DNA of 64,000 nt from an uncultured Lachnobacterium sp. (GTDB lineage: Bacteria > Bacillota > Clostridia > Lachnospirales > Lachnospiraceae): NCBI GenBank assembly GCA_900546625.1, contig URDU01000011.1:1-64000 (forward strand). The letters run 5' to 3'. Position 1 is the stretch's first letter. Each line of letters opens with the position of its first letter. This document shows positions 54,658 to 60,808 of this stretch, one piece after another. The notes below the pieces were generated by a model that was not told the DNA's origin, made no database searches, and worked only from the letters and a program-made list of their open reading frames with translations. The translations under genes and the position numbers were made by a program.

Positions 54658-55158
54658 ATGACAGACAATTTTGAATTTAGAAGTATAAACCCAGACGAGG
54701 TAGAACAGGCAATAGCAATTGAGCAGATATGTTTCCCACCGAATGAGGCATGTTCTCCAAAGGCAATGACAGAGAGAATTGCAAAGGTACCACAGCTATT
54801 TCTCGTGGCAATTGACAAATCAACCGGTAAGCTGGCGGGCTTTTTAAATGGTGTGGCAACAGACGAGGAAAAGTTCAGGGATGAGTTCTTTACGGACATC
54901 GATTTATGCGATGAAAACGGTAAGAATGTGATGCTTCTGGGCCTTGACGTGCTTCCGGAGTATCGTGGACAGGGCCTTGCCAGAGAGCTCGTGTACCGCT
55001 ACAGTCAGCGTGAAAAGGCAAACGGACGAAAAAAGCTGTTTCTGACATGCTTAGAGCAGAAGGTGGAGATGTATAAGAAGTTTGGATTGCAGGATCTGGG
55101 GATTGCTGACTCTACCTGGGGTGGAGAAGAGTGGCATGAGATGGTGCTAAAGGGATGA
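54658..55158 (+). CDS. GNAT family N-acetyltransferase
   Basis: This 166-residue GNAT enzyme has acetyl-CoA binding motif A in VMLLGLDVLPEYRGQGLARE (the Q/RxxGxG/A pattern) and a C-terminal motif B region (LEQKVEMYKKFGLQDLGI). It acetylates an amine or amino-terminal group; the substrate is unknown. It resembles arylalkylamine-type GNATs (early IEQICFPPNEACSPKAMTER). It is followed closely (10 bases) by the small partner gene of the helicase, so it may share a transcript with it. Confidence 0.85.
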   Translation: MTDNFEFRSINPDEVEQAIAIEQICFPPNEACSPKAMTERIAKVPQLFLVAIDKSTGKLAGFLNGVATDEEKFRDEFFTDIDLCDENGKNVMLLGLDVLPEYRGQGLARELVYRYSQREKANGRKKLFLTCLEQKVEMYKKFGLQDLGIADSTWGGEEWHEMVLKG

Positions 55159-55168
55159 ATGTGATAAC

Positions 55169-55492
55169 ATGGAAAATAAAGTATCAGATAACGTTATAGA
55201 AAAAAATTATAGGGAGTGCCTTAAATTCAATGAAATCAACGAAAGCAAAGTCGATAATTTAGACATGGTAACAGCAAAGGCTGCCCTTGAAAATCTGTAT
55301 GAGCTATACAAAAATAGCATATCAACAGGTCGTTTCACACAGGATAAGGACTATGTAGTAAGGTGTGCTGACCTGGTGATATTGGCTGAGGAGAACAAGG
55401 ACAGCTTGTTTTATGAGGCATGGCGCATATGGTTTAGATACTTTGTATCGATGGGCTATGCCGGATGGAATGAGCTGTGGGAGGCAGTATGA
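55169..55492 (+). CDS. Small protein coupled to the helicase-nuclease gene
   Basis: This 107-residue acidic, helical protein (CLKFNEINESKVDNLDMVTA; then RFTQDKDYVVRCADLVILAE; DSLFYEAWRIWFRYFVSMGY) has no recognisable family. Its TGA overlaps the ATG of the next gene in ATGA, so the two are made together and may work as a pair. It could be a binding partner or regulator of the helicase protein. The SD is weak: GTGATAA with no clear GGAGG. Confidence 0.55.
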   Translation: MENKVSDNVIEKNYRECLKFNEINESKVDNLDMVTAKAALENLYELYKNSISTGRFTQDKDYVVRCADLVILAEENKDSLFYEAWRIWFRYFVSMGYAGWNELWEAV

Positions 55493-58400
55493 ACCAAATT
55501 TGCAGGGATATTTTCAGAGCCATACATGAGGGTAAATGGCTGAAAATAGAATATCGAAACAAGGCAGATCAGGTGACGAAATATTGGATAGGGATAAGAG
55601 ACCTTGATCCGAGAAGTCGAACTATGAAGGTTGATGGACTTCATCTGGGACAGCTTACGATTGGAGAATATGACAGGATATTTATCGATTCAATATTGTC
55701 TACTGAGATAATAGAGGGAACATACTGCCCTGAAAATAGGTTACTTGTTGAAGATATTGAGATGCATCCAGAGCGTTACAAAAATATATTTGACAGCTCA
55801 GCAAATTTAAAAATACTAAATTATCTTGAGATATGTAATAAGCTTGATACGACTCCGTATATCACAGATTATGATTTGATTCATTACATTGACAGAGAGC
55901 GGATTAACTGTTGTATGTATCAGCTTACAGACCAGCAGTTCAGGGAAGTGGTTGCTCAATTTCAGTATTTTTCATCGCGGGAAAAAAGAAAAAGCGGATC
56001 ATTAAAAGTTAAGAGGCTGGCAATAAATGTCCTGAGTATAAACACTAATAAAGGACTCTATGTTCTTGCATATAGAAATCTAAATCTTGATGTAAAAAAT
56101 CATATTTTTAAACCAGATGAGGAGATTACAGTGTGTACGCAGTTTTCTATAGATGGAAAACAGGAAAATGCAAGGAAATTTCTAGATGCCGATGAATATG
56201 AGCTTTTGGAGGATTTTGAGAAAAATCTGGAAAAAATAAAGGATGCAATAACTGAGCATGGTGGCAACAAATCCATAGTAGATGATATGCCGTATGTTAT
56301 TGGACTTGGCATGGACGTGGTTCTCAATCTGCACGAAGAATATAAAGCAATTATGGATATGTTTGAGGCTGATAATGTGACATATCCAATAAAGGCTTTT
56401 TTTGGAGAGCTTCTTGAGAGACCAAGAAGGACAAAAGCATATCCGATTGCTCTGATTAATAAAAATATAAATCTGGATCAGCTGCTTGCGATAAACAATG
56501 CTATGAAATATCCTCTTGCATATATTCAGGGACCACCCGGCACTGGCAAAACAAATACTATAATAAACACGATAGTAACAGCTTTTTTTAACAATGTCAC
56601 AGTGCTGTTTGCATCATATAATAATGTCCCGATAGATAATGTTTTTGAAAAGCTCTCATCCATGAAGTATCGCGGGAAGACAATCCCATTTCCGGTGCTT
56701 CGCCTGGGGAATACAGAAAAAGTAATGGAGGCAATTAAATATATTAATGAGCTGCGTACACAGGTGCAGTCATTGCAGATTTTTGCTTCTACACTTGATA
56801 AGCGGAAGGATGATCGTATAGACAGGGCAAAACGTTTGTCTGCGCGTCTAAAGGAATATGAGGAAATTCTGGATTTAAAGGAGAGAAAAGAGACACTTAC
56901 ACATCTGATGAAATATCAGGAACATATGAAAAATACTATGAAGCTATTGCCGTTTCAGACAGATCTGCAAGGCTATCAGATGCAGAAGCTTGATAAAAGG
57001 ATAGCTGCTATCGGTGAGATATCGGATGCTGATGCTATGCAGCTTCTGGATAGAAATGAGGATGAATTTTATCAGTATCTGTTTTACACGTCTGCGCGCT
57101 ATATAAAGGCGCTCGAGGAACCTAAATTCCAGGAGCTTAGACAGATACTGGATTCTGATGAGACACCAGAGAAGCTGGTGAATGAGTTTAACAAATATAT
57201 GCGTAAATCTGAAAATGTAAGAAAGCTTCAGCGAGTTTTTCCTATAATCATAACGACATGCATTTCTGCGCATAAAATAGGTGAGCCTGAGCCTTTATTT
57301 GATATGACAATTATGGATGAGGCAAGTCAGTGTAATGTGGCAATCTCACTTGTGCCTATAATCAGAGGAGAAAAACTGATGCTGGTGGGAGATCCGCAAC
57401 AGCTAAATCCGGTTATCCTGCTTGGAGAACTGACAAACAAAAAGCTTCGTCGCAGGTATCATGTATCAGATGAGTACGATTATAGGGAAAATTCAATCTA
57501 TAAAACGTATCTTGCATGTGATGCAGTAAGTGATGAGGTGCTTCTGAGAAATCACTACAGATGCAATAAAGAAATAATAGGCTTTAACAATAAAAAATAC
57601 TATAACTCAAAGCTCAAGATACAGTCAAAGAGTAAGGAGCCTGAACCGCTTGTCTATATGGATGTGAAAAGCGATAACACACAGATAAAAAATACTTCGC
57701 CGGCTGAGGTTGAGGAAGTGGTGGAATATGCGCTTTTAAATAAAGATAAAAGCATTGCTGTTATTACGCCGTTTGTCAATCAAAAGCAATTGATTGAAAA
57801 TGCAATAAAGCAGAATAAGCTGAGCAATCTTGTCTGTGGAACGGTTCATGCATTTCAGGGCGATGAGAAGGATGTAGTACTGTTTTCTACAGCAATCTCT
57901 GAAAGGACAAGCTCAGGTACATATAACTGGCTTAAAAATAATAAGGAACTCATAAATGTTGCGACATCCAGAGCAAAGGAGAAGCTGGTACTTCTCACAA
58001 ACGGAAAAGAACTGGAAAGACTGCATGCAGGACAAACTGATGATGATTTGTACGAGCTGGCGCAGTATATAAAGACAAATGGCCACTCAAAAATCACTGA
58101 AAAGCATATAAGCTCACGAGCTCTGGGAATACAACCGTTCTCGACAGCTACAGAAAATGCTTTTCTCGAAAATCTTACTCATGCTCTTGAAAATATCTGG
58201 CTTTCGCAGAGCAAATATGTAATACACAAGGAGGTTGCCATATCACAGGTATTCAGAGATAACATAACCTATGATGATTTGTTTTACATGGGACGTTTTG
58301 ATTTTGTCGTATACGAAAAACAAGGCAGAAGCGAATTGCCAATACTTGCCATAGAATTGGATGGAAAAGAACACTTTGAGGATGCGGTGGTGAAAGAGCG

Positions 58401-58527
58401 GGACAGAAAGAAAAATGCGATATGTAAGGCACACAACATGGAAATTATCCGGGTGGAAAACTCATATGCGAGAAGATATAATCATATCAAAGGAATATTG
58501 ATGGATTATTTTTCAAGGGTGCATTAA
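55489..58527 (+). CDS. WYL-like / superfamily 1 helicase / nuclease fusion protein
   Basis: This 1012-residue protein has three parts. Residues about 1-75 look like a WYL-type ligand domain (GKWLKIEYRNKADQVTKYWI). A UPF1-like SF1 helicase follows: Walker A GPPGTGKTNTI at 348-358, Walker B MDEASQCN with Asp610, GDPQQLNPV, HYRCNKEI, and motif V/VI (GTVHAFQGDEKDVV, NVATSRAKEKLVL). The end (about 885-1012) fits a Vsr/DUF559-like nuclease fold: RFDFVVYEK (Asp938) and AIELDGKEHFED (Glu956, Lys960). It overlaps a small gene by four bases. A 12-codon ORF (58540-58578) with GGAGGAG follows. A defence function is inferred. Confidence 0.8.
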   Translation: MNQICRDIFRAIHEGKWLKIEYRNKADQVTKYWIGIRDLDPRSRTMKVDGLHLGQLTIGEYDRIFIDSILSTEIIEGTYCPENRLLVEDIEMHPERYKNIFDSSANLKILNYLEICNKLDTTPYITDYDLIHYIDRERINCCMYQLTDQQFREVVAQFQYFSSREKRKSGSLKVKRLAINVLSINTNKGLYVLAYRNLNLDVKNHIFKPDEEITVCTQFSIDGKQENARKFLDADEYELLEDFEKNLEKIKDAITEHGGNKSIVDDMPYVIGLGMDVVLNLHEEYKAIMDMFEADNVTYPIKAFFGELLERPRRTKAYPIALINKNINLDQLLAINNAMKYPLAYIQGPPGTGKTNTIINTIVTAFFNNVTVLFASYNNVPIDNVFEKLSSMKYRGKTIPFPVLRLGNTEKVMEAIKYINELRTQVQSLQIFASTLDKRKDDRIDRAKRLSARLKEYEEILDLKERKETLTHLMKYQEHMKNTMKLLPFQTDLQGYQMQKLDKRIAAIGEISDADAMQLLDRNEDEFYQYLFYTSARYIKALEEPKFQELRQILDSDETPEKLVNEFNKYMRKSENVRKLQRVFPIIITTCISAHKIGEPEPLFDMTIMDEASQCNVAISLVPIIRGEKLMLVGDPQQLNPVILLGELTNKKLRRRYHVSDEYDYRENSIYKTYLACDAVSDEVLLRNHYRCNKEIIGFNNKKYYNSKLKIQSKSKEPEPLVYMDVKSDNTQIKNTSPAEVEEVVEYALLNKDKSIAVITPFVNQKQLIENAIKQNKLSNLVCGTVHAFQGDEKDVVLFSTAISERTSSGTYNWLKNNKELINVATSRAKEKLVLLTNGKELERLHAGQTDDDLYELAQYIKTNGHSKITEKHISSRALGIQPFSTATENAFLENLTHALENIWLSQSKYVIHKEVAISQVFRDNITYDDLFYMGRFDFVVYEKQGRSELPILAIELDGKEHFEDAVVKERDRKKNAICKAHNMEIIRVENSYARRYNHIKGILMDYFSRVH

Positions 58528-58691
58528 TGGAGGAGACCTATGTGGAGTGATTTACCAGAAGAAAAAAAGGAAGAGTAAAAATGTCTGACCGGCTGATTTT
58601 ACAAAATCATAGACAACTGCAAAAATGAATAACTATTTTATGTGGATGTTTCTCAAGTTACCAGAATACAATAAATATAAGGAAAAATAAC

Positions 58692-59033
58692 ATGAACATA
58701 CAAATTTTCGGAACAAAGAAATGTAATGACACAAAGAAAGCTCAGCGATTTTTCAAGGAGCGTGGGATAAAGTTTCAGTTTATCGACATGAAGGAAAAAG
58801 GCATGAGCAAAGGAGAATTTAATTCTGTTGCCCAGGTGAATGGCGGTCTTGACAATATGATCAACTGGGATGGCAAAGATAAGGATTTGCTGGCACTTAT
58901 AAAGTACATAGCAGATGAGGACAAGCTGGATAAAGTACTTGAAAATCCGCAGGTGATTAAGACACCGGTGGTTAGAAACGGCAGGCAGTCAACAATCGGG
59001 TACCGGCCGGATGTATGGAAGACATGGAAATAA
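58692..59033 (+). CDS. ArsC/Spx family protein
   Basis: This 113-residue protein has the thioredoxin-like ArsC/Spx fold: IQIFGTKKCNDTKKAQRFFK at the start, with a single Cys (Cys11), a cis-Pro loop (KTPVVRNG) and C-terminal YRPDVWKTW. With one Cys and no CxxC it is neither a classical Spx redox switch nor a clear arsenate reductase, and it belongs to the uncharacterised YffB/ArsC-like group. AAGGAAA precedes the ATG. Confidence 0.85.
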   Translation: MNIQIFGTKKCNDTKKAQRFFKERGIKFQFIDMKEKGMSKGEFNSVAQVNGGLDNMINWDGKDKDLLALIKYIADEDKLDKVLENPQVIKTPVVRNGRQSTIGYRPDVWKTWK

Positions 59034-59065
59034 CACTAAAGTAAATGAAAGGCAGGAAATTATAT

Positions 59066-59335
59066 ATGTATTATGTACCGGATGGCACCGAGCAGTGCGG
59101 TTATTATGAGTGTAAAGAGTGTGGAAGCAGGTTTCTGGATTTAAAAATTGCACCAACATTGGTATGTCCATACTGTGGAGAAGAGGCAGATATGGAGATA
59201 GGACCTGATGAGGAGATGCCAAAAGTTGTAGAATCTGCGAAGCTTATTCAGATGGTTAGAGGTGCTGAAGAGGTAGAGAAGATGGATAAGCTGTTATCGC
59301 TTGCGGTGACAGGTGGCGATTTTAGCTGGATATAA
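59066..59335 (+). CDS. Small zinc-ribbon protein
   Basis: This 89-residue protein has two Cys pairs, CKECG (about 16-20) and CPYCG (about 34-38), separated by 13 residues, forming a zinc ribbon, and an acidic helical tail. I chose the ATG at 59066 (MYYVPDGTEQ) because GGCAGG lies 9 bases before it; the ATG at 59045 has no SD. Function is unknown. Neighbours are ArsC/Spx-like and Abi genes. Confidence 0.6.
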   Translation: MYYVPDGTEQCGYYECKECGSRFLDLKIAPTLVCPYCGEEADMEIGPDEEMPKVVESAKLIQMVRGAEEVEKMDKLLSLAVTGGDFSWI

Positions 59336-59441
59336 GAATGCAGATATTTGTAGACGCAGACACATGTCCGGCAGATGGTACACAGCTGAAAATATCGACC
59401 GTATACTGATGGAGATATTAAGCTAGTATTAAGCTTGTGTC

Positions 59442-59470
59442 TTGACAGAAACATAAATTGTAAATAAAAT
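59442..59470 (+). promoter_or_regulatory. Consensus promoter of the Abi leader RNA
   Basis: TTGACA (59442-59447) and TAAAAT (59465-59470) are separated by exactly 17 bases. Transcription would start near 59477. Confidence 0.8.
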
Positions 59471-59476
59471 GTAAAT

Positions 59477-59580
59477 TTTGCTTCTGAGAGATTGTTTTTT
59501 CCTGTGAGATGAATATAATAAGATTAACAGAACCCAACACGCCTCTCAACGATGCGGACCACGTTGGGTCTTTTAATTTT
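59477..59580 (+). ncRNA. Structured leader RNA of the Abi gene (abiF-motif candidate)
   Basis: The predicted transcript runs about 100 bases before the Abi start. Its 3' end is a hairpin with ACCCAAC (59532-59538) paired to GTTGGGT (59563-59569) and a T-rich tail, resembling a terminator. A conserved RNA of this kind upstream of Abi_2 (abiD/abiF) genes is known as the abiF RNA motif; position and shape match, but I cannot score it against the family model here. It may act as an RNA antitoxin or attenuator. Confidence 0.6.
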
Positions 59581-59595
59581 AAGGAGAAATGTCAA

Positions 59596-60474
59596 ATGGG
59601 AGATATGAAACAGCATCAGCCGCCTTTGACAATTGAGGAACAGATAGAAAATCTTAAGAGTATAGGGTTGGTTATCAAAGATGAGGAATATGCACAAAGA
59701 ATATTAAACGATATATCATATTTCAGATTGATAAAGGCATATAGCATAAATTTGAAAACAAAGAATGGTATTTATAAAAAAGATGTTACATTTGAACAGA
59801 TTGTTGAATTGTATTTGTTTAATTCGAATTTTAGACAACTTATATTTCCGGAAATTGAAAAAATAGAAATAAATGTAAGGTGTCGTATTGCTAATTATTT
59901 TGCAGAAACCTATGGTGTTTTGGGGTATTTAGAGGCAGAAAATTTTGTGAATTTTAAATATCATAAATCTTTTTTAAATGATGTCGAGGAAATTAGACGT
60001 AATTCAAAAGCTCCGTTTGTCAGGAATTTTCGTGAGAATTATGAAGAAGGTCAATTGCCAATATATGCTCTTGTGGAAATTTTTAGTTTCGGGACTTTGT
60101 CAAAGTTTTATAAGAATATGAAAAATCCAGATAAAAAAGCTGTTGCAAAAATGTTTGATATTGGATATACATATCTGGAAAGTTGGTTAGAGAGTGTTTC
60201 TTATGTTAGAAATATATGTGCTCATTATGGTCGTTTGTATAATGCAAAATTAGCAAAGACACCGAAATTATATAAAGAATATTCAGAAGCAGGAATTGGA
60301 AATAATCGTATTTTTGGTGTGTTAATATGTATTAAGCAAATATTGAAAAACGACACTCACTGGAATGATTTTGTTGAGAATATAGAATTACTTTTTAAAA
60401 GATATAAAAAGGTTGAATTCAAGACAATGGGATTTCCTGAAAATTGGAGAGAATTATTGGAAGTTAAAAATTGA
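59596..60474 (+). CDS. Abi_2 (AbiD/AbiF) abortive infection protein, HEPN type
   Basis: This 292-residue protein begins TIEEQIENLKSIGLVIKDEE and contains LNDISYFRLIKAYSINLK, PIYALVEIFSFGTLSKFYKN and the HEPN RNase-type motif RNICAHYGRLYN (Arg, four residues, His). It matches the AbiD/AbiF family of phage-abortive proteins, thought to act as toxins that cut RNA. The start at 59596 follows AAGGAG by 9 bases; the upstream frame to 59509 covers the leader hairpin and is not coding. The gene is AT-rich compared with neighbours. Confidence 0.88.
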   Translation: MGDMKQHQPPLTIEEQIENLKSIGLVIKDEEYAQRILNDISYFRLIKAYSINLKTKNGIYKKDVTFEQIVELYLFNSNFRQLIFPEIEKIEINVRCRIANYFAETYGVLGYLEAENFVNFKYHKSFLNDVEEIRRNSKAPFVRNFRENYEEGQLPIYALVEIFSFGTLSKFYKNMKNPDKKAVAKMFDIGYTYLESWLESVSYVRNICAHYGRLYNAKLAKTPKLYKEYSEAGIGNNRIFGVLICIKQILKNDTHWNDFVENIELLFKRYKKVEFKTMGFPENWRELLEVKN

Positions 60475-60477
60475 GCC

Positions 60478-60515
60478 GGCTTGAACAGAGATGTTCCAAT
60501 CGGCCTTTTTGCGTT
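60478..60515 (+). terminator. Terminator after the Abi gene
   Basis: GCCG and CGGC bracket an inner GAAC/GTTC stem, followed by CTTTTTG. It lies right after the Abi stop codon. Confidence 0.75.
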
Positions 60516-60538
60516 AAGGAAGATTGGAGAGGCACCAT

Positions 60539-60808
60539 ATGAAACCAAGGACAGCAAAGAGCATGGAGCTATATGATATATTGCTTAGGCGCGGGTATCC
60601 GGAGCCGTTTTGCGATGAGATAACAAAAAACCTAAATACCGACTGGACAGCTCAAAGGATGATAGGATATCTGTCACACTATAAAAAGCTTCCCATGGAG
60701 GAAATCGCCGATGAAATGCTTGCGATACTCAGCGACCGCAACCGCATAATGCAAAAGCATGAGCTTGAGGAGACAAATGCAAGATGGAATGAATACTTAA
60801 ACAGATAA
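60539..60808 (+). CDS. Conserved small helical protein of unknown function
   Basis: This 89-residue protein reads MKPRTAKSMELYDILLRRGY, then PEPFCDEITKNLNTDWTAQR, and looks like a family of about 90 residues conserved in Clostridia without a known role. It is helical with a charged C-terminus (ETNARWNEYLNR). The SD GGAGAGG lies about 8 bases before the ATG. It is followed 16 bases later by a receiver-like protein, so they probably share an operon. Confidence 0.65.
   Translation: MKPRTAKSMELYDILLRRGYPEPFCDEITKNLNTDWTAQRMIGYLSHYKKLPMEEIADEMLAILSDRNRIMQKHELEETNARWNEYLNR

Follow-up and report, generated by a model that had tools for sequence, protein, structure and literature searches.

The window, the 64,000-nucleotide stretch of contig URDU01000011.1 (assembly GCA_900546625.1, an uncultured Lachnobacterium sp.) analysed here, contains a 107-codon gene that overlaps by ATGA a 1012-codon gene for a protein with helicase and nuclease parts. 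The overlap raises the question whether the two genes form one defence system, as the original prediction had it, or whether the large gene stands alone, and what it might then do. In our best reading, the large gene is real, conserved and stand-alone, a variant of the helicase-nuclease kind of defence, with DNA repair as a live rival. The features discussed below all lie on the plus strand; G001 is the nearest genome compared, with 33% of sampled 31-letter words in common with the window.

54658-55158, +: GNAT acetyltransferase gene, left flank in common with G001 (98%)
55169-55492, +: 107-codon gene, putative conserved left flank of slot 1 (sequence comparison)
55489-58527, +: WYL-like/UPF1-like SF1 helicase/DUF2726 nuclease gene, 1012 aa, putative cargo of slot 1
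55489-55743, +: WYL-fold module, residues 1-85 (predicted fold)
55744-56466, +: family-specific middle region, residues 86-326, no above-cut-off Pfam domain in the window protein
56467-57420, +: AAA_11, helicase domain 1, residues 327-644 (Pfam; conservation; nearest solved folds)
56530-56553, +: Walker A within AAA_11, including Lys354
57517-58002, +: AAA_12, helicase domain 2, residues 677-838 (Pfam)
58144-58488, +: DUF2726 nuclease, residues 886-1000, with Asp938, Glu956 (58354-58356) and Asp958 (Pfam; conservation)
58692-59335, +: right flank of slot 1, formed by ArsC-like and zinc-ribbon genes (97% identity to G001 168166-168841)
59361-60518, +: second variable slot, occupied in the window by AbiD (59509-60474), in G001 by a PDC-S02 nuclease candidate

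The small gene and the slot

The start coordinates given earlier are correct and the ATGA overlap was confirmed, with a GGGAGG site at 55479-55484 inside the end of the small gene. Overlap and site would suit a true two-gene system, in which translational coupling would let the 107-residue protein regulate the helicase-nuclease or switch it on, but the distribution of the small gene makes this very improbable. In tblastn searches the small protein was absent from all 80 helicase genome loci, of which 76 are informative, with at least 330 bases upstream, and four too short. It was found in one of 40 relatives and, among the loci compared, only in G001. Across 396 Lachnospiraceae genomes the small gene occurs in two (G001 and G416) and the helicase in 31, and none has both. 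G001 has the small gene at the corresponding position (91% identity) with no helicase behind it, and a different frame of 43 codons starts at the same ATG as the helicase in the window. Metagenome copies of the small protein carry several different tails exactly from the helicase-start junction on, some of which may be assembly errors; no viral contig contained the small gene. Because the small gene is absent from helicase loci and stands without the helicase in G001, the two-gene reading fails, and the small protein was rejected as the partner it had been taken for. Since the 43-codon frame of G001 shares the ATG and the metagenome tails diverge there, the overlap appears to be a property of the slot edge. 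By sequence comparison, the small gene is a putative fixed left flank, whose end would offer a ribosome-binding site and ATGA to an incoming gene. A start-stop overlap is no proof that two genes form one system if the first of them marks the constant border of a variable slot.

The slot was read against one comparison genome, G001, to which its flanks are collinear at 93-97%. On the left, the stretch collinear between window and G001 (93-96%) begins at the ABC transporter genes, includes the GNAT gene and extends up to where the small gene ends. The likeness stops within five bases of the helicase start and resumes seven bases before the ArsC-like gene, 3.2 kb further on in the window and 23.5 kb in G001. 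By PADLOC, the slot of G001 holds a type II methyltransferase (E 3.5e-147) and restriction endonuclease (E 1.2e-59), KwaB (E 3.1e-119) behind a 192-aa frame, an MzaC-like gene (E 4.9e-57), a weak MzaD-like match, a further MTase_II (E 6.6e-91), Vsr (E 1.7e-21), mREase_IV (E 4e-134) and the MutT-like PDC-S07 (E 3.7e-46). Further methyltransferases, a recombinase-like gene (by eye) and several other frames with no PADLOC match are also present. With known defence genes filling the same slot, the defence-like setting of the original prediction holds. Because G001 has the small gene without the helicase and defence genes in the same slot, the helicase-nuclease can be placed, on this comparison, as probable stand-alone cargo of a defence hotspot, with the coupled small gene as its flank.

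The 43-codon frame of G001 has no PADLOC match. Our guess is that it is the broken start of the mREase_IV gene, which is plausible because the best two PADLOC stretches of that gene begin at profile position 248. After the zinc-ribbon gene follows the second slot, where G001 has the PDC-S02 candidate (E 5.7e-147, PADLOC) and the window AbiD. The start of the gene at 60524 (window 60519-60570) recurs in G001 as short copies at 168129-168175 (ahead of ArsC), 168878-168929 (behind the zinc-ribbon gene) and about 170112 (ahead of the gene itself); they border exchangeable pieces and are possible recombination seeds.

Domains and conserved residues of the large protein

The predicted content of the large protein, WYL-like, UPF1-like SF1 helicase and nuclease parts, proved right, the nuclease being DUF2726 by Pfam and the WYL part a predicted fold. 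Both AAA_11 and AAA_12 are present, as are the Walker A motif and the acidic motif II (Asp610/Glu611), and DUF2726 scores 31.6 bits, above the Pfam cut-off of 24.7, with an acidic active site. Walker A (348-354), Asp610, Glu611, Asp938 and Glu956 are invariant in 63 of 63 relatives, and Asp958 is kept in 60. Glu956 had been singled out together with Lys960; the former choice stands, whereas Lys960 as a catalytic residue was imprecise. Because Lys960 is kept in 53 of 63 relatives and the other positions are near-fully conserved, Asp938, Glu956 and Asp958 look like the putative active site of the nuclease, which we take to be of the PD-(D/E)XK type. By structure comparison, the nearest solved folds of the motor are SETX, IGHMBP2 and UPF1, whereas the best PDB sequence matches of the profile are Dna2.

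Residues 1-85 are predicted to form a WYL-type fold. A profile search gave no Pfam WYL match in the window protein, which stays below the cut-off, and weak ones in 13 of 63 relatives (best E 0.0056). Trp17, Tyr22, Trp33 and His52 of the WYL pocket are invariant. In PafB an Arg pair binds ssDNA, and ssDNA binding to the WYL domains activates PafBC (PMC11804915, drawn on in excerpt, as are the other PMC sources below); Phe65 and Ser68 of the large protein align at this pair in a weak profile alignment (P 0.09). The two PDB sequence matches of the N-terminal profile (E 0.38 and 1.2) were not accepted as real. A profile search of 398 genomes of the phylum gave one true distant relative of the N-terminal half; a second match (E 8e-4) was dropped as chance, its frame resembling a methyltransferase by eye.

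Several minor features of the gene and its relatives were observed. Behind the helicase, a good ribosome-binding site precedes a frame of 12 codons (window 58540-58578); no such frame was seen by eye at this place in the seven relatives compared. Proteins P0002, P0038 and P0069, representing two diverged helicase alleles, have one in-frame deletion in common, of about 67-70 residues (475-478 joined to 546), which removes part of a helical insert and shows similar short words at the join by eye. Four metagenome proteins (P0035, P0056, P0065, P0049) have other N-terminal parts joined to the helicase at differing points, which suggests decayed recombinants or assembly chimeras.

Distribution and neighbourhoods of the helicase

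Within the genus, 7 of 24 genomes carry a full-length helicase. The 31 carriers among the 396 Lachnospiraceae genomes (7.8%), each genome at least 90% complete, comprise 29 full-length copies, one truncated at a contig edge and one whose two parts lie on separate contigs; genomes with partial matches only, at about 30% identity, were not counted. Broken remnants alone were found in G366 and G155. The tree mixes families, with Emergencia and Oscillospiraceae rows among the Lachnospiraceae, where metagenome-bin labels may be wrong. Residence on plasmids or phages was rejected: 72,556 plasmid and 50,697 phage records held no copy covering 80% of the large protein, and the one viral contig, L106, is identical to genome locus L069. 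These two therefore count as one phage-setting case, in which major head, tail sheath, hub and baseplate genes lie directly upstream of the helicase. In a viral structure library, the 50 matches listed were helicases, replicases or unnamed entries.

After removal of 12 near-duplicates from the 80 helicase loci, 68 non-redundant loci were compared, with genes called by a simple longest-frame script that also called some spurious antisense frames. Conserved housekeeping synteny, which the original prediction had set against itself, was not seen: among 772 neighbour genes no family occurs in more than nine of the 68 loci. A conserved partner was likewise rejected, since the most recurrent neighbour family is an ABC ATPase in nine loci only. 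Restriction-modification, Vsr or type IV restriction-like neighbours were found by BLAST with G001 genes in five of 68 loci (L019, L022, L061, L073, L077). Locus L019 additionally holds AIPR, and L077 has two serine-recombinase-like genes (BLAST and by eye), a DNA methyltransferase-like gene and a GmrSD_N gene. In L001 (Roseburia faecis, 85%) conjugation-like frames were noted, and TetR-ABC-permease genes lie near the helicase there as in the window; several neighbour names, among them the recombinases and the conjugation-like frames, were given by sight only.

The PADLOC test (E <= 1e-10) covered 150 of the 239 genes near the helicase (66 loci), which together hit 179 families. As a control, 139 genes were taken from 11 regions of helicase-bearing contigs no closer than 35 kb; they hit five families (mad3 in 4 genes, mad8 in 3, AriA in 2, DRT in 1, ATPase-Toprim in 1). 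Because a single generic ATPase accounts for 27 of these 179 and each family is represented by three of the 150 genes at most, this contrast is inflated and the enrichment a modest signal. The commonest Pfam families near the helicase, among the 25 of 150 families listed, are mostly ordinary, such as chemotaxis receptors, cyclophilin, HSP70 and PheT domains.

Known systems and candidate functions

As the original prediction had left the protein unassigned, so the definitions of named defence systems tested here gave no assignment. The PADLOC and NCBIfam candidates were rejected, their matches spanning the helicase or helicase-nuclease parts only, with all NCBIfam scores below cut-off. Hhe, ProA and PDC-S37 match in helicase and nuclease parts, but Hhe (64.2 of 2000 bits) and ProA (106.7 of 1500) fall far below the NCBIfam cut-offs. 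The best PADLOC scores are those of Mokosh over the helicase (MkoA E 7.4e-53, residues 327-864 only; MkoC E 1.3e-49). One type of Mokosh contains a kinase. Neither a kinase nor a PLD domain was found in the large protein at Pfam E <= 1, whereas Mokosh is listed with PLD-like domains (PMC10952713). Nhi of staphylococci resembles the large gene in being a single gene with nuclease and helicase, whose product nicks and unwinds DNA (PMC12904381), but Nhi-like proteins are listed with a NERD nuclease (PMC10952713), for which the large protein, with DUF2726 and a WYL-like fold, gave no Pfam match at E <= 1. In Hachiman (HamAB) a sensor helicase drives an effector nuclease (PMC12278908); there, however, two proteins are involved, and here a single one with an SF1 motor. 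HamB has no PADLOC match to the large protein at E <= 1, and the 68 loci have no recurrent partner. Dna2 likewise joins a UPF1-like motor to a nuclease, but its nuclease precedes the motor, whereas that of the large protein follows it. WYL folds have been described in transcription regulators and in certain Pif1 helicases; the Pif1-WYL fusions of thermophiles (PMC9964779) also have a WYL domain on an SF1B helicase, but C-terminal to a Pif1 motor, whereas here it is N-terminal to a UPF1-like motor plus nuclease. A WYL-like fold on a helicase-nuclease was not met in the open-licence literature searched.

We somewhat favour the reading that the large gene is cargo of a defence hotspot and that its product, a helicase-nuclease with a WYL-like module, acts against invaders as a single protein, because of the defence-filled slot in G001, the patchy spread, the phage and mobile settings, the restriction-modification neighbours and the conserved motor and nuclease residues. 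Counting against it are the mostly ordinary Pfam neighbours and inflated PADLOC contrast, the seeming replacement of the PafB-type Arg pair by Phe65/Ser68 in a weak alignment, RecQ adjacency in several branches, which points to DNA repair, and the identity above 50% and nearly constant length of the family, unlike many defence genes, which change fast.

DNA repair is the main rival. The protein could be an accessory Dna2-type enzyme, retained in a subset of strains, that trims ssDNA flaps or stalled forks with RecQ or SbcCD; we consider this unlikely, yet it stays alive because the RecQ adjacency, which had not been predicted, exceeds chance. In five of 68 non-redundant loci a RecQ gene is found on the strand of the helicase and no more than 1.5 kb from it (distances 16, 30, 165, 318 and 1477), in four tree branches once the sisters L024 and L031 are joined, against about 0.07 loci expected by a rough random-placement estimate. 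Of 23 RecQ-family matches in the 36 helicase-bearing genomes, 22 of them above the family cut-off, three lie this near, each in a different genome (G123, G213, G324), where about 0.04 would be expected; locus and genome counts may share genomes, and the expectation assumes random placement. SbcC and SbcD genes occur within about 8 kb in four of 68 loci, a protein resembling the C-terminal extension of helicase-adjacent RecQs (L021, 628-742; L036, 677-796) adjoins the helicase in L012 and the L060 group and lies about 3.5 kb away in L073, and Dna2 is the best PDB sequence match. On the other hand, about 92% of the sampled Lachnospiraceae do without the helicase, 15 of the 36 helicase-bearing genomes, some incomplete, have no RecQ match at E <= 1e-40, and a slot in common with defence genes and a prophage setting are atypical of repair genes. 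It is improbable that the enzyme is RNA-directed, its UPF1/IGHMBP2/SETX-like motor travelling along RNA or R-loops and its nuclease acting on RNA-DNA hybrids when the cell is infected or stressed. The nearest solved motor folds do include SETX-, IGHMBP2-, UPF1- and Sen1-RNA complexes, and an NCBIfam IGHMBP2-family match reaches 143 bits, below the cut-off of 349, but the motor family does not decide the substrate, Dna2 is best by sequence, and DUF2726 is termed a restriction-endonuclease-fold DNase, found fused to an abortive-infection domain (PMC3710099).

Under the anti-invader reading, a mechanism can be proposed by analogy with PafBC (PMC11804915) and Hachiman (PMC12278908). The WYL-like and middle regions might restrain the motor and respond to a signal of infection or of damaged nucleic acid; the motor would then load onto single-stranded DNA, invading or damaged, and pass it to the C-terminal DUF2726 nuclease, which would cut. 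RNA might also serve as the substrate. It is by analogy that we infer sensing from the WYL-like fold. Elsewhere, a WYL-type ligand pocket gates transcription factors, its usual ligand being ssDNA. A more specific version is conceivable but rather doubtful: a new one-protein immune effector in which the pocket directly gates the UPF1-like motor and restriction-type nuclease and reads a non-ssDNA ligand; the effector would spread as a single gene among defence slots and prophages and, in certain lineages, couple to RecQ. The family is compact, conserved at full length and present in common gut bacteria, and with the WYL-like fold sitting on a helicase-nuclease, one protein suffices to test whether a WYL module can gate an effector directly.

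Some further neighbours and relatives were recorded. SbcC lies directly upstream of the helicase in the sister loci L058 (3940-8001) and L046 (3970-7950), with a one-base overlap in one. The RecQ-extension-like protein of about 190 aa (L012 4047-4634, L060 11010-11567, L073 3881-4441) is without a Pfam or NCBIfam match. G001 has, at C1 589256-591421 (L089), a 908-aa frame that is about 30% identical across the motor and nuclease parts, and frames of about 900 aa that score like it occur in many genomes of the family; they may form a separate helicase-nuclease family.
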